From NCBI RefSeq assembly GCF_000214595.1, contig NZ_AFIG01000001.1:1158382-1222381 (forward strand): a stretch of 64,000 bases of DNA. Direction: 5' to 3'. The notes under the pieces were generated by a model, which worked only from the letters and a program-made list of their open reading frames with translations, had not been told where the DNA came from and searched no databases. Below, piece after piece: positions 34,091 through 40,891 of the stretch (position 1 is the first letter of the stretch; every line of letters begins with the position of its first letter). Source of the stretch: Methylophaga thalassica MP (GTDB lineage Bacteria; Pseudomonadota; Gammaproteobacteria; Nitrosococcales; Methylophagaceae). A program made the position numbers and the translations under genes.

Positions 34091-36127
34091 CTAAGGAATC
34101 TGAGCCAACTTCTCACGCATTTCTTCTGTCGTTGGTCTCAGCAGTGCCAGACCTTTTTGGCTTCTGCGTTGACTCAAGAAATACAAAATAGGTGCCGCAA
34201 TAAATACTGATGAACTTGTACCAATCACTATGCCAAAAAGCATAGGTAAGGCAAAACTTGAAACGGCTGACCCGCCTGCTATTCCCATCGGTAAAAGTGC
34301 CAAAAATGTGGTAACAGACGTAAATACCGTCCTGGTTAATGTCGACGAAATACTCTCATTCATCATCTGAATAATCGGTTTATCCGGCGTGGCCCGTATG
34401 CTTTCTCGAATACGATCAAACACCACCACTTTATCATTGATGGAATAACCGATAAGGGCTAACAATGCCGCCACTGCCGTCAGATTAAATTCAACACCTG
34501 TTAACGCAAAGAAACCAATGGTTTTAGTTAAATCTAAAGCAATCGTTAATGTTGCAGCGATAGCAAAATGAGATTCAAACCTCACTGTCAGGTAGATTAA
34601 CATCCCTACCCCAGCTAACAAGATAGCCAGGATCGTGTTATCGGAGAAATTACCACTGACTTTAGGGCCTACCATATCGACTTTAGGAAAGTCAGCATCA
34701 GGCTGAATAGTCAGTACGGCTTCTTTTAAATCATTAACTTGCTGTGATGTGGCACCAGGGGCAGTTGATGTCACAGGCAGCCTGACCAGAAAGTCCCCCG
34801 CCTTCCCTGTTTCCTGAATAAGTGCATCTGATAAATGGTGAGTTCCCAGCGTATTTCTGATTTGTTCAACAGATAAATCTGTGGCGTGAACCTCAACTAA
34901 TGTTCCCCCAGTAAAATCAACGCCATATTTCAGACCAGGCTGAAAGAACAACACCACAGCAGCAATAGACAAAATGGCTGACGTTGTCAGGCCAGCATAA
35001 CGCCCACGCAGAAAATTAATCCCCTTGCCACTTAATTTATCTAAGAAATTGAAACCGTTGATCTTTAAAGGCTGTTTTTCTTTACCCCGAATAGACCATT
35101 CCATCAGTAATCGTGTCACGGCAACGGCAGTAAACATTGAAGTCACCAAGCCGATTCCTATCGTCACAGCAAAGCCCTGAACAGGTCCTGTACCAAACAT
35201 AAATAACAAACTTACAGCGATAAGCGTCGTTAAATTTGAATCCAGAATGGTGGTATACGCTTTGTCAAAGCCCTCACGAAGCGCTTTCCAAGACGCTTTA
35301 CCTCGTTTTGATTCTTCCCTGATGCGTTCATTAATAAGAATATTGGCATCCACCGCCATGCCAATGGTCAGGATAATACCGGCAATACCAGGCAGCGTTA
35401 GTGTTGCACCAAGTAAACCCAGTGCACCAAAAATTAGGCCTACGTTGATAGCAAGACCTGTACACGCGATAAGTCCCCATCTGCCATAGATTCCCAACAT
35501 GAAAATCACCACCATAGCTGCGCCTAAGAGGCCGGTTGTTAGCCCCATTTGTATGGCATCACTGCCAAGATCAGGACCAACGGTTCGCTCTTCAATCACA
35601 TGTAATGGAACAGGCAAAGCCCCTGCTCTCAATAATAACGCTAAATTATTCGCTTCAGCGGTAGTGAAATTGCCACTAATCTCACCGCTTCCACCCGGTA
35701 TTTCACTACGTATAACAGGGGCTGTAATGACTTTCCCATCAAGCACGATAGCGAGTGCCCGACCTATATTGTTATGGGTCATATTGCCAAATAATTTGGC
35801 GCCTTCACTATCAAGCTTGAAATTAACTACGGGTTCGCCGGTTTTCTGATTAAAGCCTACCTGAGCATCACGTATATGTTTACCTTCCATGGCCACATGG
35901 GTTTCGAGACGGTAGCGGCTATCCGTATTGATATCTGGGTAAGTCACCGTATTTTTTGTTGTATCAGTGGCTGCCCAATGAAACGTCATTTTTGCCGTGG
36001 TGCCAAGCAGTTCACGAATCTTAGTAGGATCTGCCACACCCGGCATTTGAACCAGAATATCCTGCTTGCCTTGACGGGTAATACTCGGATCAACCAGTCC
36101 CGTTTCATCAAGGCGTTTTCTGACCAC
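34091..36127 (-). CDS. SecDF, C-terminal part after the internal stop
   Basis: Open frame of 678 codons beginning at a GTG downstream of the TAA. It holds most of the SecD P1 domain (VDPSITRQGKQDILVQMPG), the SecD membrane domain (GMAVDANILINERIREE) and the whole SecF half (LKYGVDFTGGTLVEVH, YSINDKVVVFDRIRES). It lacks TM1 and the first P1 strand. No ribosome site is obvious before the GTG, so separate translation is doubtful. Confidence 0.5.
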   Translation of the reverse strand: MVRKRLDETGLVDPSITRQGKQDILVQMPGVADPTKIRELLGTTAKMTFHWAATDTTKNTVTYPDINTDSRYRLETHVAMEGKHIRDAQVGFNQKTGEPVVNFKLDSEGAKLFGNMTHNNIGRALAIVLDGKVITAPVIRSEIPGGSGEISGNFTTAEANNLALLLRAGALPVPLHVIEERTVGPDLGSDAIQMGLTTGLLGAAMVVIFMLGIYGRWGLIACTGLAINVGLIFGALGLLGATLTLPGIAGIILTIGMAVDANILINERIREESKRGKASWKALREGFDKAYTTILDSNLTTLIAVSLLFMFGTGPVQGFAVTIGIGLVTSMFTAVAVTRLLMEWSIRGKEKQPLKINGFNFLDKLSGKGINFLRGRYAGLTTSAILSIAAVVLFFQPGLKYGVDFTGGTLVEVHATDLSVEQIRNTLGTHHLSDALIQETGKAGDFLVRLPVTSTAPGATSQQVNDLKEAVLTIQPDADFPKVDMVGPKVSGNFSDNTILAILLAGVGMLIYLTVRFESHFAIAATLTIALDLTKTIGFFALTGVEFNLTAVAALLALIGYSINDKVVVFDRIRESIRATPDKPIIQMMNESISSTLTRTVFTSVTTFLALLPMGIAGGSAVSSFALPMLFGIVIGTSSSVFIAAPILYFLSQRRSQKGLALLRPTTEEMREKLAQIP

Positions 36128-36163
36128 CTCAAGACTTTGATTAACAACATCCGTGACAAGTGA

Positions 36164-36607
36164 TTAAACCCATCGTTGATCTAAGCTTATTTGAATCCCG
36201 TCCGTTTCTTTTTTGATGTCAAAACGTTTTTTGCCATCTGTTGAATTACGGGCTAACTGACTAGCAAGTTCAACGGATTTATCGATGTCCGCGCTTTTAC
36301 GAATGGGTATATATAAACCTGACTCAGAAATGACAGGACTCGTGTAGTAAATCCCCTGCTTTTGCAACTCGCTGGTCAGTTCAGACTGCAGCAAATCATA
36401 TTGTTTGTTTAATAACTCTTTTGTGTCCGCTTCCAAAAGCAGGTGAGAACCTCCCTGTAAATCCAACCCCATAGAAATGGTCGTGTCGGTATACCAGGCA
36501 GGCAGTTTTTGAGACAAAGAATAAGGAAGAATGTTAGGTAAACTGCACAGCAGCCCGAACACAATCAACAAACCATAAACAATGGTCCGTGAAGACAATG
36601 ATTTCAT
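36164..36607 (-). CDS. SecDF, N-terminal fragment before the internal stop
   Basis: 147 codons: TM1 (about 10-28), the conserved SMGLDLQGGSHLLLE, and the first part of the P1 domain, ending at the TAA. The ATG has an AGAGG site 6 bp upstream, which is predicted to be hidden in RNA structure (see 36613-36685). Not functional alone as a Sec component. Confidence 0.5.
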   Translation of the reverse strand: MKSLSSRTIVYGLLIVFGLLCSLPNILPYSLSQKLPAWYTDTTISMGLDLQGGSHLLLEADTKELLNKQYDLLQSELTSELQKQGIYYTSPVISESGLYIPIRKSADIDKSVELASQLARNSTDGKKRFDIKKETDGIQISLDQRWV

Positions 36608-36612
36608 GAAAA

Positions 36613-36685
36613 ACCTCTAACGTTTTCGAAATAAAAAAGCCCTGGCCAAAGGGCCGATTTGTATGGACGAAACTAAGCTAGAGGT
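36613..36685 (-). promoter_or_regulatory. RNA structure predicted to mask the secD ribosome site
   Basis: On the minus-strand transcript, ACCTCTAGC (36685-36677, within the last Pro-Pro-Leu-Ala codons of the upstream gene) is complementary to GTTAGAGGT (36621-36613), which contains the secD Shine-Dalgarno AGAGG: nine pairs including one G-U. A second ACCTCTA copy lies at 36710-36704. A ribosome stalled on the RAPP codons would cover the first strand and free the secD site. This is the design known for SecM, MifM and VemP; here it is a prediction. Confidence 0.55.
36632..36656 (-). terminator. GC hairpin with U-run between the RAPP gene and secD
   Basis: On the minus strand, GCCCT-TTGGCC-AGGGC followed by TTTTTT. 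It can act as an intrinsic terminator or attenuator, and lies inside the loop of the larger predicted structure. Confidence 0.55.
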
Positions 36686-37056
36686 GGCGCCCTCAAAGGC
36701 GGATAGAGGTAATAACGAGAAAAAGGCGTTGCTTCTGTAATGTCTTTAAATACAAAACAGACTGAACCCCAGTTTTTCGGATGTTGATTTTGTGAGTGAC
36801 AAATAGCCCACAAAGGTAAGTCAATATCAGGAAAAAATGCTTCAGCAGACTGATTTTTAATTTCAGCTATTCGAAGAAAGTATCCCTGCGTATTAAATGA
36901 ATCAAGATGACTAATAAGCCCGTGATTAATCTCATTGCTTGAGTCACTCTTAGCATAGGAAGCTATTGGCAGAGCCAGCAACAACAACGACAAAAAGCAT
37001 ATCCCCAAAAGGGATAAGACATAGCGTTGAGAGAGAGATTGTTCGGATTTATACAT
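36673..37056 (-). CDS. Putative secDF arrest peptide (secreted, C-terminal RAPP motif)
   Basis: 127 residues directly upstream of secDF, 65 bp before its ATG. It has an N-terminal Sec signal or anchor (hydrophobic about 13-32, ending SYA) and a short non-repetitive body (about 90 residues). It ends YYLYPPLRAPPLA. The RAPP at 122-125 is the stalling motif of the ApdA/ApdP class of translation-arrest peptides, which are also secreted proteins encoded upstream of secDF; VemP plays the same part before Vibrio secDF2. When secretion is slow the ribosome would stall at the second Pro, open the RNA helix over the secD ribosome site and induce SecDF. The position, signal sequence, motif and RNA complementarity all agree, but stalling is not shown. 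I know of no overall family match. Confidence 0.7.
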   Translation of the reverse strand: MYKSEQSLSQRYVLSLLGICFLSLLLLALPIASYAKSDSSNEINHGLISHLDSFNTQGYFLRIAEIKNQSAEAFFPDIDLPLWAICHSQNQHPKNWGSVCFVFKDITEATPFSRYYLYPPLRAPPLA

Positions 37057-38109: not shown

Positions 38110-39261
38110 TCATTTTACAGTTACCTGACCGTTCATTAGCATCGGGAGAAGCCAGTCGCGGAGAGCTATTAGCTCTCTATTTTCGAGGCTTCGCTCAAAT
38201 ATCATTTTGTTGTAATTCGTAACGATCTCATCATACTTTTTGAGCAAATTCGAAGTTGGATAAGCAAGTGTCAGCGAATGCAAATCGTTTTTTGTGATAG
38301 AGCCAAAGGTTGTACCTTCGGAGTTTCGACGGTCAAAAATCTGTTTAAAATACTTCATCACGTAAAACAGAAAACCATCTGAGCCGGTTTTACTGTTTAA
38401 TGCAGCTAAGCCTCGACCAATACAGCAGTCGGTATTAGCAATATTCATATCACCTACTGGTGCACGAACGCTTAATAATATGTCGCCTTTCTTTGCCATG
38501 CGGCTAGGCGCTGTCGTGTACTGGCGTGTGGTAGGGAACAACCAACCAAAGTCTGTAGAACCTTGATAAAAAATGGTTCCAACGCCTTCATCATTATACG
38601 AACTCCCCTCTGGGGATTGACCTATCGTGATGTTCGCTATTTCAGATAGCGTTTTGTCGCTCCACCCCTCCGGTATTTCGCGCTTTAGGGTTGGGTTGTA
38701 GACCATTTTACCGCCGGAGGTTTTGTAGGGTTTGCCGTTGGCGTCGGGGAAATCGAACTGTACAAACCAATAGTCGTACAGGGTTTTAGCCATGGCTTCC
38801 AGCTCGGCGTTGATGCGGTTATTGAGTTCGATTTTTTGGTCGATGACACTCAACACATTGGCGATTTCTGTTTGTTCATCACCTGTAATATCGCGAAAGT
38901 GGATGCCTGTGAGAATTGGCATAGTCAAAAATTTAGTCTGAGAGCCTTGTGACTTTTCCCGTAATCTCTTTAATTCGAGTTTTAGTGCGTAATAAACATA
39001 ATCAATATTGAAGCCTTCTTTGGCGGTTAGAATATAAGTGCGCTGGTAAGCATTGAATTTCCCCTTGTACCGACTTACATGAAAATTCCCCCGGGCATTG
39101 TTACCAGCTACAAGCACAACATCATCATCATATGCAAAGTGATCTATCTGATCAGGGAATTCAGCACAAGTAAAAAATGGATATTCTCCGCCTGAAACCG
39201 CTTGATTGGCATCTAGTTTTCCGGTTGATATGTTACAAGCAAGACCTATTGTTTTATCCAT
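38110..39261 (-). CDS. hsdS: Type I restriction-modification specificity subunit HsdS
   Basis: 383 residues with two target recognition domains separated and followed by conserved helical spacers. TRD1 starts at the very N-terminus (GEYPFFTCAEFPDQIDHFAY). The central repeat is EIANVLSVIDQKIELNNRIN. TRD2 begins near WSDKTLSEIANITIGQSPEG, and the second spacer carries YDEIVTNYNKMIFERSLENR. The subunit sets the split DNA recognition sequence, which cannot be deduced here. It overlaps hsdM by 8 bp. Confidence 0.93.
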   Translation of the reverse strand: MDKTIGLACNISTGKLDANQAVSGGEYPFFTCAEFPDQIDHFAYDDDVVLVAGNNARGNFHVSRYKGKFNAYQRTYILTAKEGFNIDYVYYALKLELKRLREKSQGSQTKFLTMPILTGIHFRDITGDEQTEIANVLSVIDQKIELNNRINAELEAMAKTLYDYWFVQFDFPDANGKPYKTSGGKMVYNPTLKREIPEGWSDKTLSEIANITIGQSPEGSSYNDEGVGTIFYQGSTDFGWLFPTTRQYTTAPSRMAKKGDILLSVRAPVGDMNIANTDCCIGRGLAALNSKTGSDGFLFYVMKYFKQIFDRRNSEGTTFGSITKNDLHSLTLAYPTSNLLKKYDEIVTNYNKMIFERSLENRELIALRDWLLPMLMNGQVTVK

Positions 39262-40891
39262 TAAACTTCAACCCCACCAACTGCTTTTTAATCTCCGTTT
39301 CCAATTCATGAGACTGACTAAACAGGTTATCTAGGTTACTGGTAAAACCCTGCATCTTTTGTGCGAATTGCTCTGGGGTAATATCCACATATTCGATTTT
39401 GACATCAAAGTACTGGCCAGCACTTAACGAGTAATTTTTAGCTACGATGTCGGCATAACTGACCGCGACGGAAAAATCTTCTACAGCTTGTTTAGCGTTA
39501 AAGACATCAATAATTTGTTTTTCTTCATCTGGCGTTAATACGGTTTTTTGGTTTTTACCGTCTTTGACTTTTTCGCCCAAGTTTGAGGCGTCCACCAGTA
39601 CTACATCGCCATCGTTACTGGCATCGATAAACAGAATAGAGACGTTGGTGCCGGTAGTGGCGAAGATATTGGATGGCATAGAAACCACACCCGCCAGCAT
39701 TTTGTTTTTCACCAAATGTTCACGGATTTTCTTGTCGATACCCGATTGCGCGGTAATAAAACCGGTTGGCACTACCACCGCCGCTTTGCCGCCCGGTTTA
39801 AGCGAAGCAATGATGTGCTGTAAAAACAGCGAATAAATCGCCATTTTGTCTTTTGCTTTCGCCGGTGCTTTAGGAATACCGGCAAAGAAGCGTTCTTTGT
39901 TTTCTTTGCTGTCGAGCTCATCCCTAAAATCGCTGAAATCGAGCTTAAACGGTGGGTTAGAGACGATATAATCGAAGCGCTTTAACTCTTTTCCGTCCTT
40001 ATGATAGGGGTGCTGAACAGTATTACCTTGAATCACATTCGGGATAGAGTGCACCAAATTGTTTAAGATCAGGTTTAAACGCAGCAGGTTAGAGGATTTT
40101 TGTGAAATATCCTGGGTGTAAATGCTACAGCGGTTTTCACCAATGGCGTGGGCGACATTCATCAATAGCGTGCCCGAACCTGCGGATGGGTCGTAACAGG
40201 CAACATTTCGTACTGTGCCTCGCTCAGCTTGTGGTACGAGGATTTCGGCCATAATACGCGCCACCGCATGAGGGGTAAAATACTCGGCGTATTTGCCGCC
40301 AGAGTTGCTGTTGTAGTCTTTGATCAGGTATTCAAAGATGGTGGCGTAGAAGTCGAATTTTTGGGTAAAAATACGCTCAAAACTGAATTCCACCAGTTTG
40401 TTGATAATGGCGCGACAGAAGGCATCGCGTTTTGAGTCGTCGGCAATATATTGGCTGATGCGGTCGAACAGTACCACTTTCGCGCCGCCATCGGTTTTAA
40501 CCGCGAATACATCGTTATTGGTAATGGCAATGTCGATAAGAGTATCGTCAAATAGCTTGGCAAAGTCAGGCGCGTTTTGTTGGCTAAACAGGTAGCTTAT
40601 AAAGTGCTGCGGTTTTAGCCGTGCCGTATCGCCGCCCATTTGCAGTTGTAGCATGTCGAGGTCGTCTTCGCTCATGGCTACTAGCACTTCTTCCCACTTA
40701 TCGGCTTTAGCTATAGTGTCGTCGAGCTTTTTGGCTTCAAAGGCGAACTTGTCGTTTAAAAACTTATACAAAAAGGTTTGGGTAATGATTTTAAATTCGT
40801 TACCGTCGTTCCCTAAACCATAGTTGGCACAGATGCTTTTTAAGCTGTCAATCAGGGTTTTGGTTTTTTGCTGAAACTCTAATTCAACCAT
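39254..40891 (-). CDS. hsdM: Type I restriction-modification methyltransferase HsdM
   Basis: 545 residues: an N-terminal helical HsdM domain, the SAM-binding motif I (CYDPSAGSGTLLMNVAHAIG) and the catalytic NPPF motif (YIVSNPPFKLDF) for N6-adenine methylation. A C-terminal helical region contacts HsdS. The length is usual. It starts 34 bp after the hsdR stop. With HsdS it forms the modification enzyme, and with HsdR the restriction complex. Confidence 0.95.
   Translation of the reverse strand: MVELEFQQKTKTLIDSLKSICANYGLGNDGNEFKIITQTFLYKFLNDKFAFEAKKLDDTIAKADKWEEVLVAMSEDDLDMLQLQMGGDTARLKPQHFISYLFSQQNAPDFAKLFDDTLIDIAITNNDVFAVKTDGGAKVVLFDRISQYIADDSKRDAFCRAIINKLVEFSFERIFTQKFDFYATIFEYLIKDYNSNSGGKYAEYFTPHAVARIMAEILVPQAERGTVRNVACYDPSAGSGTLLMNVAHAIGENRCSIYTQDISQKSSNLLRLNLILNNLVHSIPNVIQGNTVQHPYHKDGKELKRFDYIVSNPPFKLDFSDFRDELDSKENKERFFAGIPKAPAKAKDKMAIYSLFLQHIIASLKPGGKAAVVVPTGFITAQSGIDKKIREHLVKNKMLAGVVSMPSNIFATTGTNVSILFIDASNDGDVVLVDASNLGEKVKDGKNQKTVLTPDEEKQIIDVFNAKQAVEDFSVAVSYADIVAKNYSLSAGQYFDVKIEYVDITPEQFAQKMQGFTSNLDNLFSQSHELETEIKKQLVGLKFNG

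Follow-up and report, generated by a model that had tools for sequence, protein, structure and literature searches.

An upstream open reading frame (uORF) that directly precedes a fused secDF gene, here called secDF2, was recognized in a 64,000-nucleotide stretch of the Methylophaga thalassica MP genome (the window), and very probably encodes an arrest peptide of the RAPP-like (RQH) type that monitors secretion and controls secDF2 through exposure of its Shine-Dalgarno (SD) sequence. The first-pass annotation of this DNA had proposed the same core reading, namely that a ribosome arrested by a RAPP peptide makes the start of secD accessible. It is now supported by three comparative tests: the conservation of the motif relative to control loci, the cost of opening the SD relative to shuffled sequences, and the covariation of the SD helix in relatives.

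According to the proposed mechanism, the N-terminus of the uORF product would engage the Sec machinery with the C-terminus still inside the ribosome. Once stalled at RAPP, the ribosome would sit over ACCUCUAGC, upon which the secDF2 SD (GUUAGAGGU) would be released and the backup translocation motor made. Under strong export, pulling would cancel the arrest, the ribosome would terminate, the helix would re-form and secDF2 would stay off. The present study establishes that the motif is conserved and that the uORF is placed before secDF2, and it predicts a ribosome-dependent RNA switch. Stalling, its force-dependent release and the induction that follows would take place as in the published relatives, in which RAP on the P-site tRNA blocks the reaction of the A-site proline (PMC10951233).

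The uORF and its interrupted target gene

The uORF (37056-36673, minus strand) encodes a 127-residue candidate arrest peptide, and equivalent uORFs are present at related SecDF2 loci. Its C-terminus is PPLRAPPLA (letters YYLYPPLRAPPLA), and a gap of 65 nt separates it from the start of the downstream fused secDF gene, an ATG at 36607 on the minus strand. The earlier description of a 127-residue frame directly before secDF with this ending was borne out, coordinates included, when the letters were read again. The protein had no match at E<=1 in either Pfam or NCBIfam, a PDB sequence search returned nothing relevant, and an Rfam search gave three matches only, every one under its gathering score.

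A hydrophobic segment that may act as a signal sequence or membrane anchor lies towards the N-terminus, at approximately residues 12-35 (36952..37023, minus strand). It was located from hydropathy (19-residue Kyte-Doolittle mean up to 2.68, residues 13-31) and from Leu-rich columns that are kept across the family in the protein alignment. The spacer from this segment to RAPP is about 86 residues, compared with the more than 30 residues set for RQH peptides. RAPP itself is encoded by codons 122-125 (36682..36693, minus strand). Based on the published rule that the third motif codon of RQH peptides occupies the P site (PMC10987492), the predicted stall places Pro124 (36687-36685) in the P site and Pro125 in the A site. 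Only one occurrence of RAPP or RGPP was found in the 25,089 residues of the window's stop-to-stop frames of at least 100 aa. RQH peptides have been described as small uORFs of unknown function before secA, secDF or yidC, with an N-terminal segment, a spacer and a conserved C-terminal RAPP-like sequence (PMC10987492); the window uORF has all of these and, judged by its sequence features, fits the known family.

The 5' part of the fused secDF2 (36164..36607, minus strand) runs for 147 codons and is closed by an in-frame TAA (36166-36164). Apart from this stop the frame stays open as far as 34091, and the rest of the gene (34091..36163, minus strand), which includes a 678-aa ORF from a GTG at 36127, matches SecD_SecF_C (3.4e-75) and the NCBIfam SecDF family NF009583 (825.6 bits, cut-off 721). 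The gene is free of internal stops both in G070, which belongs to the same species, and in the 97%-identical G008, so that on this comparison the window TAA is either a nonsense mutation particular to the strain or an error in the sequence. Given the nonsense codon, the output of the switch has probably been lost in this strain. Separate secD and secF matches occur elsewhere in the same genome (G000:C3:781032 and following), and the fused SecDF appears to be an additional copy.

The interruption invites the view that the locus is decaying and that the arrest peptide is a leftover in this strain. We consider the arguments for and against such decay to be evenly balanced, and it can hold alongside the main reading, since that is a statement about the lineage. 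The in-frame stop, absent from the same-species G070, is what favours it; against it, neither the uORF nor the RNA helix is damaged, which means that any loss would be recent, and the TAA may also reflect a base-calling error.

Predicted masking of the ribosome site ahead of secDF2

The candidate anti-SD strand, ACCTCTAGC (36677..36685, minus strand), is made up of the third base of Pro124, the codons of Pro125 and Leu126, and two bases of Ala127, and lies where the stalled ribosome is predicted to sit on the mRNA. The SD strand of secD, GTTAGAGGT (36613..36621, minus strand), is predicted to be paired in the free mRNA. In the minimum-energy fold the two strands (36685-36677 and 36621-36613) pair along 9 bp, one of them G-U; the helix that the first-pass annotation had proposed between the Pro-Pro-Leu-Ala codons and the secD ribosome site is thus present in the predicted fold of the window RNA. 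The fold has an energy of -31.1 kcal/mol (z -2.06), and 8 of 200 shuffles folded equally well or better.

The effect of a stalled ribosome was expressed as the opening cost, i.e. how much free energy it takes to unpair the SD. The free RNA was started 16 nt before the P-site codon, and the RNA of the stalled state 16 nt after the first base of that codon, the upstream RNA being omitted. In the shuffled controls (100 per locus) the peptide and the SD were fixed, synonymous codons were redrawn and intergenic bases were shuffled. The predicted opening cost of the window SD fell from 11.06 kcal/mol in the free RNA to 3.40 kcal/mol in the stalled state. This drop of 7.66 was not reached by any of the 100 shuffles (shuffle mean 0.57, z 6.0).

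A cruder measure, tried before the opening cost, was the accessibility of the SD, taken as its mean unpaired probability with the RNA upstream of the ribosome kept. By this measure the window SD showed no rise, with values of 0.03 both free and stalled. Amongst 38 loci the mean unpaired probability went up on stalling in 26 and down in 11, the latter including G008 and G070. Folding of the downstream RNA alone suggests that the freed SD may partly form a weak hairpin with the start region, and the flat accessibility, together with this hairpin, is a real limit of the switch prediction. Masking of the SD, understood as pairing under the stalled ribosome with easier opening after the stall, is indicated in the window by the opening cost, without a gain in accessibility.

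Control at the level of transcription has also to be weighed. A consensus scan placed a terminator-like hairpin followed by a T run (36638..36655, minus strand) in the loop of the SD helix, and transcription might terminate there, between the uORF and secDF2, with the ribosome on the uORF setting the read-through. The site has a 6-bp stem and a T-rich tail on the minus strand, inside the 65-nt gap. Its stem is identical in G070 and G008, G070 differing at two loop bases and one T-run base and G008 at one loop base; as the differences in G070 spare the stem, our estimate for attenuation was raised very slightly. It stays low, and attenuation is considered unlikely: the T run of G070 is interrupted while both core strands of the SD helix are kept, and the stalled ribosome, whose predicted footprint stops about 17 nt short of the hairpin, would leave it uncovered. 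The scan itself asks for no more than a bare consensus: over 851 bases it hit 5 sites, where shuffled sequence averaged 0.7, and three of the 5 are this one inverted repeat, read on both strands.

Conservation, variation and spread of the proposed switch

Loci for comparison were gathered by SecDF2 similarity, without regard to the presence of a uORF. A pattern scan of named genomes covered 38 loci, of which five were alphaproteobacterial, one belonged to Chloroflexota and 32 were gammaproteobacterial (including Marinobacter, Methylophaga, Nitrincola and Marinimicrobium); a uORF with the motif was seen by eye at all 32 of the last group. The set used for counting had 40 rows, comprising 38 gammaproteobacterial SecDF2 loci and two alphaproteobacterial ones. 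Repeats and near copies (L046, L051, L055, L058-L062, L071 and L074) and the non-gammaproteobacterial L076-L078 and L083 were omitted from it. When the motif was defined as R[AG][AP]P at most 8 residues from the uORF end, all 38 gammaproteobacterial rows had such a uORF and neither of the two alphaproteobacterial rows did. Four further loci, from a single genus of the class, all carry a motif uORF.

With near copies counted, the motif uORF was thus present at 42 of 42 gammaproteobacterial SecDF2 loci (RAPP in 38, RGPP in 3 and RAAP in 1), the farthest of which has a SecDF2 54% identical to the query. The controls were 42 loci with separate secD genes or from outside the Gammaproteobacteria. 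Two of these, at contig edges, were set aside: L091 and L013, the latter a SecDF2-like fragment (61%) of G018 that starts at the contig end, so that its upstream side falls outside the sequence. None of the 40 testable controls had the motif near the end of the upstream ORF, and a simple string test found a yajC-like tail upstream in 31 of the 40. The search for RAPP-ending proteins before secDF in relatives, proposed in the first-pass annotation, came out in favour of its reading.

In the protein alignment of 38 uORFs, the four motif columns are occupied by Arg (38/38), Ala (36/38), Pro (37/38) and Pro (38/38). RAPP is the sole near-invariant stretch in a fast-diverging protein, and all other columns lie far below it. 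The underlying codons are variable, with 31 distinct 12-mers among the 38 loci. Between the window and the same-species G070, three of the four motif codons differ, all three synonymously and none nonsynonymously, and 7 nonsynonymous differences lie in the uORF protein outside the motif. Since the motif codons vary while the residues stay, selection acts on the peptide. The RAAP exception is G009, Methylophaga sp. OBS3 (L038 / L058), whose uORF ends RAAPQANFA and keeps a strong SD helix. Mutants in which this Pro was replaced showed a raised reporter, i.e. lost arrest, in ApcA, in ApdA and almost always in ApdP, Gly excepted (PMC12992588). The G009 copy is doubted on these grounds and, by analogy, may be weak, lost or SecM-like.

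Opening costs were compared over 33 deduplicated loci, which are related to one another, after the near copies L032, L031, L049, L045 and L044 had been dropped. Owing to this relatedness, no weight is given to the Fisher and Wilcoxon values for the set. The mean predicted cost fell from 7.34 to 2.97 kcal/mol on stalling; the gain had a positive z in 30 of the 33 loci and reached p<=0.05 in 21. The other 12 missed this level: L056, L067 and L072 show no RNA switch, and the gain was not significant in L040, L041, L042, L052, L053, L065, L068, L070 and L073. In 37 of 38 minimum-energy folds (the exception being L056) the SD is at least partly paired with the region from -13 to +23 of the P-site codon, which the stalled ribosome would cover or border.

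The anti-SD strand, however, differs from locus to locus. In 20 of the 38 loci, positions +11 to +19 from the P site pair with the SD GAGGAUUAC at 7 or more of 9 positions, and in nearly all of these 20 the segment is the uORF's own stop codon with its neighbours (GUAAUCCUC). Covariation was scored on 20 loci, i.e. 19 of those just mentioned (minus the near copy L049) plus L079 (6/9 pairs), leaving out L040 and L041 (6/9 pairs each). Two-sided changes were found in 6 of the 9 pairs, amounting to 15 cells; none of 500 shuffles matched either covariation count and slid versions of the helix scored far lower. The paired percentage of 91.7 is inflated, the loci having been picked by pairing. In Marinimicrobium L066 the uORF extends beyond this point, and the same RAPP-relative position still pairs, with a change of U-A to C-G.

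The idea that one stop-codon helix serves the whole family was also considered and rejected, since at least 7 of 9 pairs form in only 20 of the 38 loci and the helix is absent from the window clade. There, the anti-SD strand consists of the Pro-Leu-Ala codons. The ACCTCTA/TAGAGGT pairing, whose conservation had been put forward as a check on the first reading, is kept in the window's closest clade of 3 genomes, but not farther afield, where other relatives use a different anti-SD strand. G008 and G070 retain eight of the nine pairs and lack the other because of a synonymous CCA/CCC difference. The comparative set accordingly separates the two halves of the switch, with a fixed peptide motif and a changing anti-SD strand.

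It is very improbable that the uORF encodes an ordinary small secreted protein in which RAPP and the SD helix coincide by chance, as its lack of a known family and the general failure of RAPP-like sequences alone to stall (PMC10987492) might be taken to suggest, for this account does not fit the comparative sequence data, i.e. 42 of 42 loci against 0 of 40 controls, synonymous-only change in the motif and helix covariation in relatives. Counting against the main reading are the 12 of 33 loci without a significant switch, the flat accessibility, the RAAP of G009, the broken target and the fact that most of the RAPP-like sequences tested from E. coli and B. subtilis stalled inefficiently (PMC10987492).

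A fused SecDF2 was found at E<=1e-200 in 15 of 57 genomes of the family, and an order-wide search of 63 genomes at E<=1e-160 returned the same 15. Nothing passed E<=1e-200 in the remaining 42 genomes of the family, a number of which are incomplete. The window clade (G000, G008, G070, G003 and G014) stands apart from the other Methylophagaceae in the SecDF2 tree. A single group of all 15 Methylophagaceae SecDF2 was rejected with a p-AU of 6e-7 (31 rows, quick tree), an optimistic value given that the test was run after the tree had been seen. The backbone around Marinobacter is without resolution. For the window-clade SecDF2 (34091-36607), the best segments reached 67-70% with Marinobacter, 58-61% with other Methylophaga and 71-72% with G003 and G014. 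The simplest reading of these sequence comparisons is that the uORF-secDF2 cassette has spread by horizontal transfer.

Known monitors and a recurrent arginine

A gammaproteobacterial RQH member has been tested experimentally. The uDF_RQH_Enterobacterales peptide of Alteromonas naphthalenivorans (RGPP) stalls and induces secDF2 through an SD-masking stem-loop, and its arrest-defective P127A form lowers secDF2 reporter activity about 5.6-fold (PMC10987492). The novelty implied by the earlier remark, that no described gammaproteobacterial methylotroph example was known to its author, was therefore claimed too strongly. Both are gammaproteobacterial secreted uORFs of about 130 residues with a RAPP-like C-terminus (R125GPP in Alteromonas) and an SD-masking stem-loop, whereas the window uORF has RAPP rather than RGPP, another anti-SD strand and belongs to another order (PMC10987492). 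An RGPP uORF is also present in a genus of another order of the class (g266; L105), with a TTCCTGT/ACAGGAA anti-SD match as judged by eye.

ApdP of alphaproteobacteria and ApdA of actinobacteria share with the window uORF the RAPP motif, an N-terminal export signal and a position before a presumably secondary SecDF (PMC7897499; PMC10951233). They differ from it in host, the carriers of the window-type uORF being Gammaproteobacteria (Methylophaga, Marinobacter and others), and the ApdP and ApdA groups have been defined by phylum or class (PMC10987492). VemP, which acts on secD2/secF2 of Vibrio, is likewise an export monitor that controls a second SecDF through SD exposure (PMC11470409). It is set apart by the description of its motif, with no Pro reported in the A or P site (PMC7897499), unlike the RAPP of the window uORF.

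Among the papers searched, none joins Methylophaga, or Marinobacter, with the term 'arrest peptide', and none combines Gammaproteobacteria with SecDF, an upstream ORF and ribosome stalling. Neither Methylophaga nor Nitrosococcales is named in the main text of PMC10987492, which distinguishes 11 secDF groups whose members are listed in the supplements, and the Methylophaga and Marinobacter uORFs may already be included in those lists. The parts for which no description was found in these papers are the changing anti-SD strands and an arginine about 61 residues before the stall. The present analysis places a well-supported, predicted RAPP arrest peptide in Methylophaga, Marinobacter and their relatives.

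The arginine in question, Arg62 in the window (36871..36873, minus strand), lies 62 residues ahead of the P-site residue and is a candidate sensor residue. Counted back from the P-site residue, an Arg falls at a distance of 61+-2 in 28 of the 33 deduplicated uORFs, compared with 18 at any distance in the best of 2000 spacer shuffles, a control figure that is optimistic because the loci are related. None of the 33 has an Arg 36-49 residues before the stall. Asp occurs within 2 residues of distance 44 in 29 of the 33, and Pro within 2 residues of distance 43 in 27. Of the 38 aligned uORFs, 32 have an Arg in the corresponding column, at 55-64 residues before the stall (mean 60.9). Strict spacing is contradicted by the four further uORFs, of which only L106 has an Arg at 59-63 (at 62), the others having it at 54-57.

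VemP also has an Arg in the region that contacts the translocon: Arg-85, beside a short hydrophobic segment in the SecY-contact region, controls the release of arrest (PMC11470409). The likeness of the two residues is one of analogy. Tentatively, and with the balance of our judgement somewhat against it, the uORFs of the SecDF2 clade may be modular sensors, in which a RAPP stall module is combined with a separate conserved export-sensing module. The latter would comprise G-F/L-V/I, a hydrophobic patch, the Arg at 61+-2, and then an Arg-free stretch with an Asp/Pro-rich patch. At the stall it would be located in or just past SecYEG and would act like VemP Arg-85 and its short hydrophobic segment. 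With a stall motif different from that of VemP, the same type of sensor of SecDF activity would have been invented independently. The cassette and its target would travel together among marine and salt-loving gammaproteobacteria, and its RNA half would be rebuilt from the bases beneath the stalled ribosome, often with the stop codon of the uORF among them. The Arg some 61 residues ahead of the stall offers a testable bridge to VemP, by which the SecDF-sensing part of a monitor peptide could be told from the ribosome-stalling part.

A calcium/sodium antiporter gene (TIGR00367; 33012..34079, minus strand) begins 11 nt after secDF2 in the window. Linkage could be judged in 14 Methylophagaceae genomes with 0.9-3 kb of downstream sequence, and nine of these, from both clades, have the antiporter on the secDF2 strand (at 11 nt in the window and within about 0.5 kb in the eight others). 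The antiporter may be co-transcribed with secDF2 and, given that the linkage recurs, the secDF2 switch may also touch ion transport. The hosts of uORF-secDF2 loci are mostly marine or saline. From these habitats and the adjoining antiporter we infer that the inducing signal would be low Na+, as for VemP. On the other side of the locus, upstream of secDF2 at 38110-40891, there are ORFs whose translations resemble type I restriction-modification specificity and methylase subunits.
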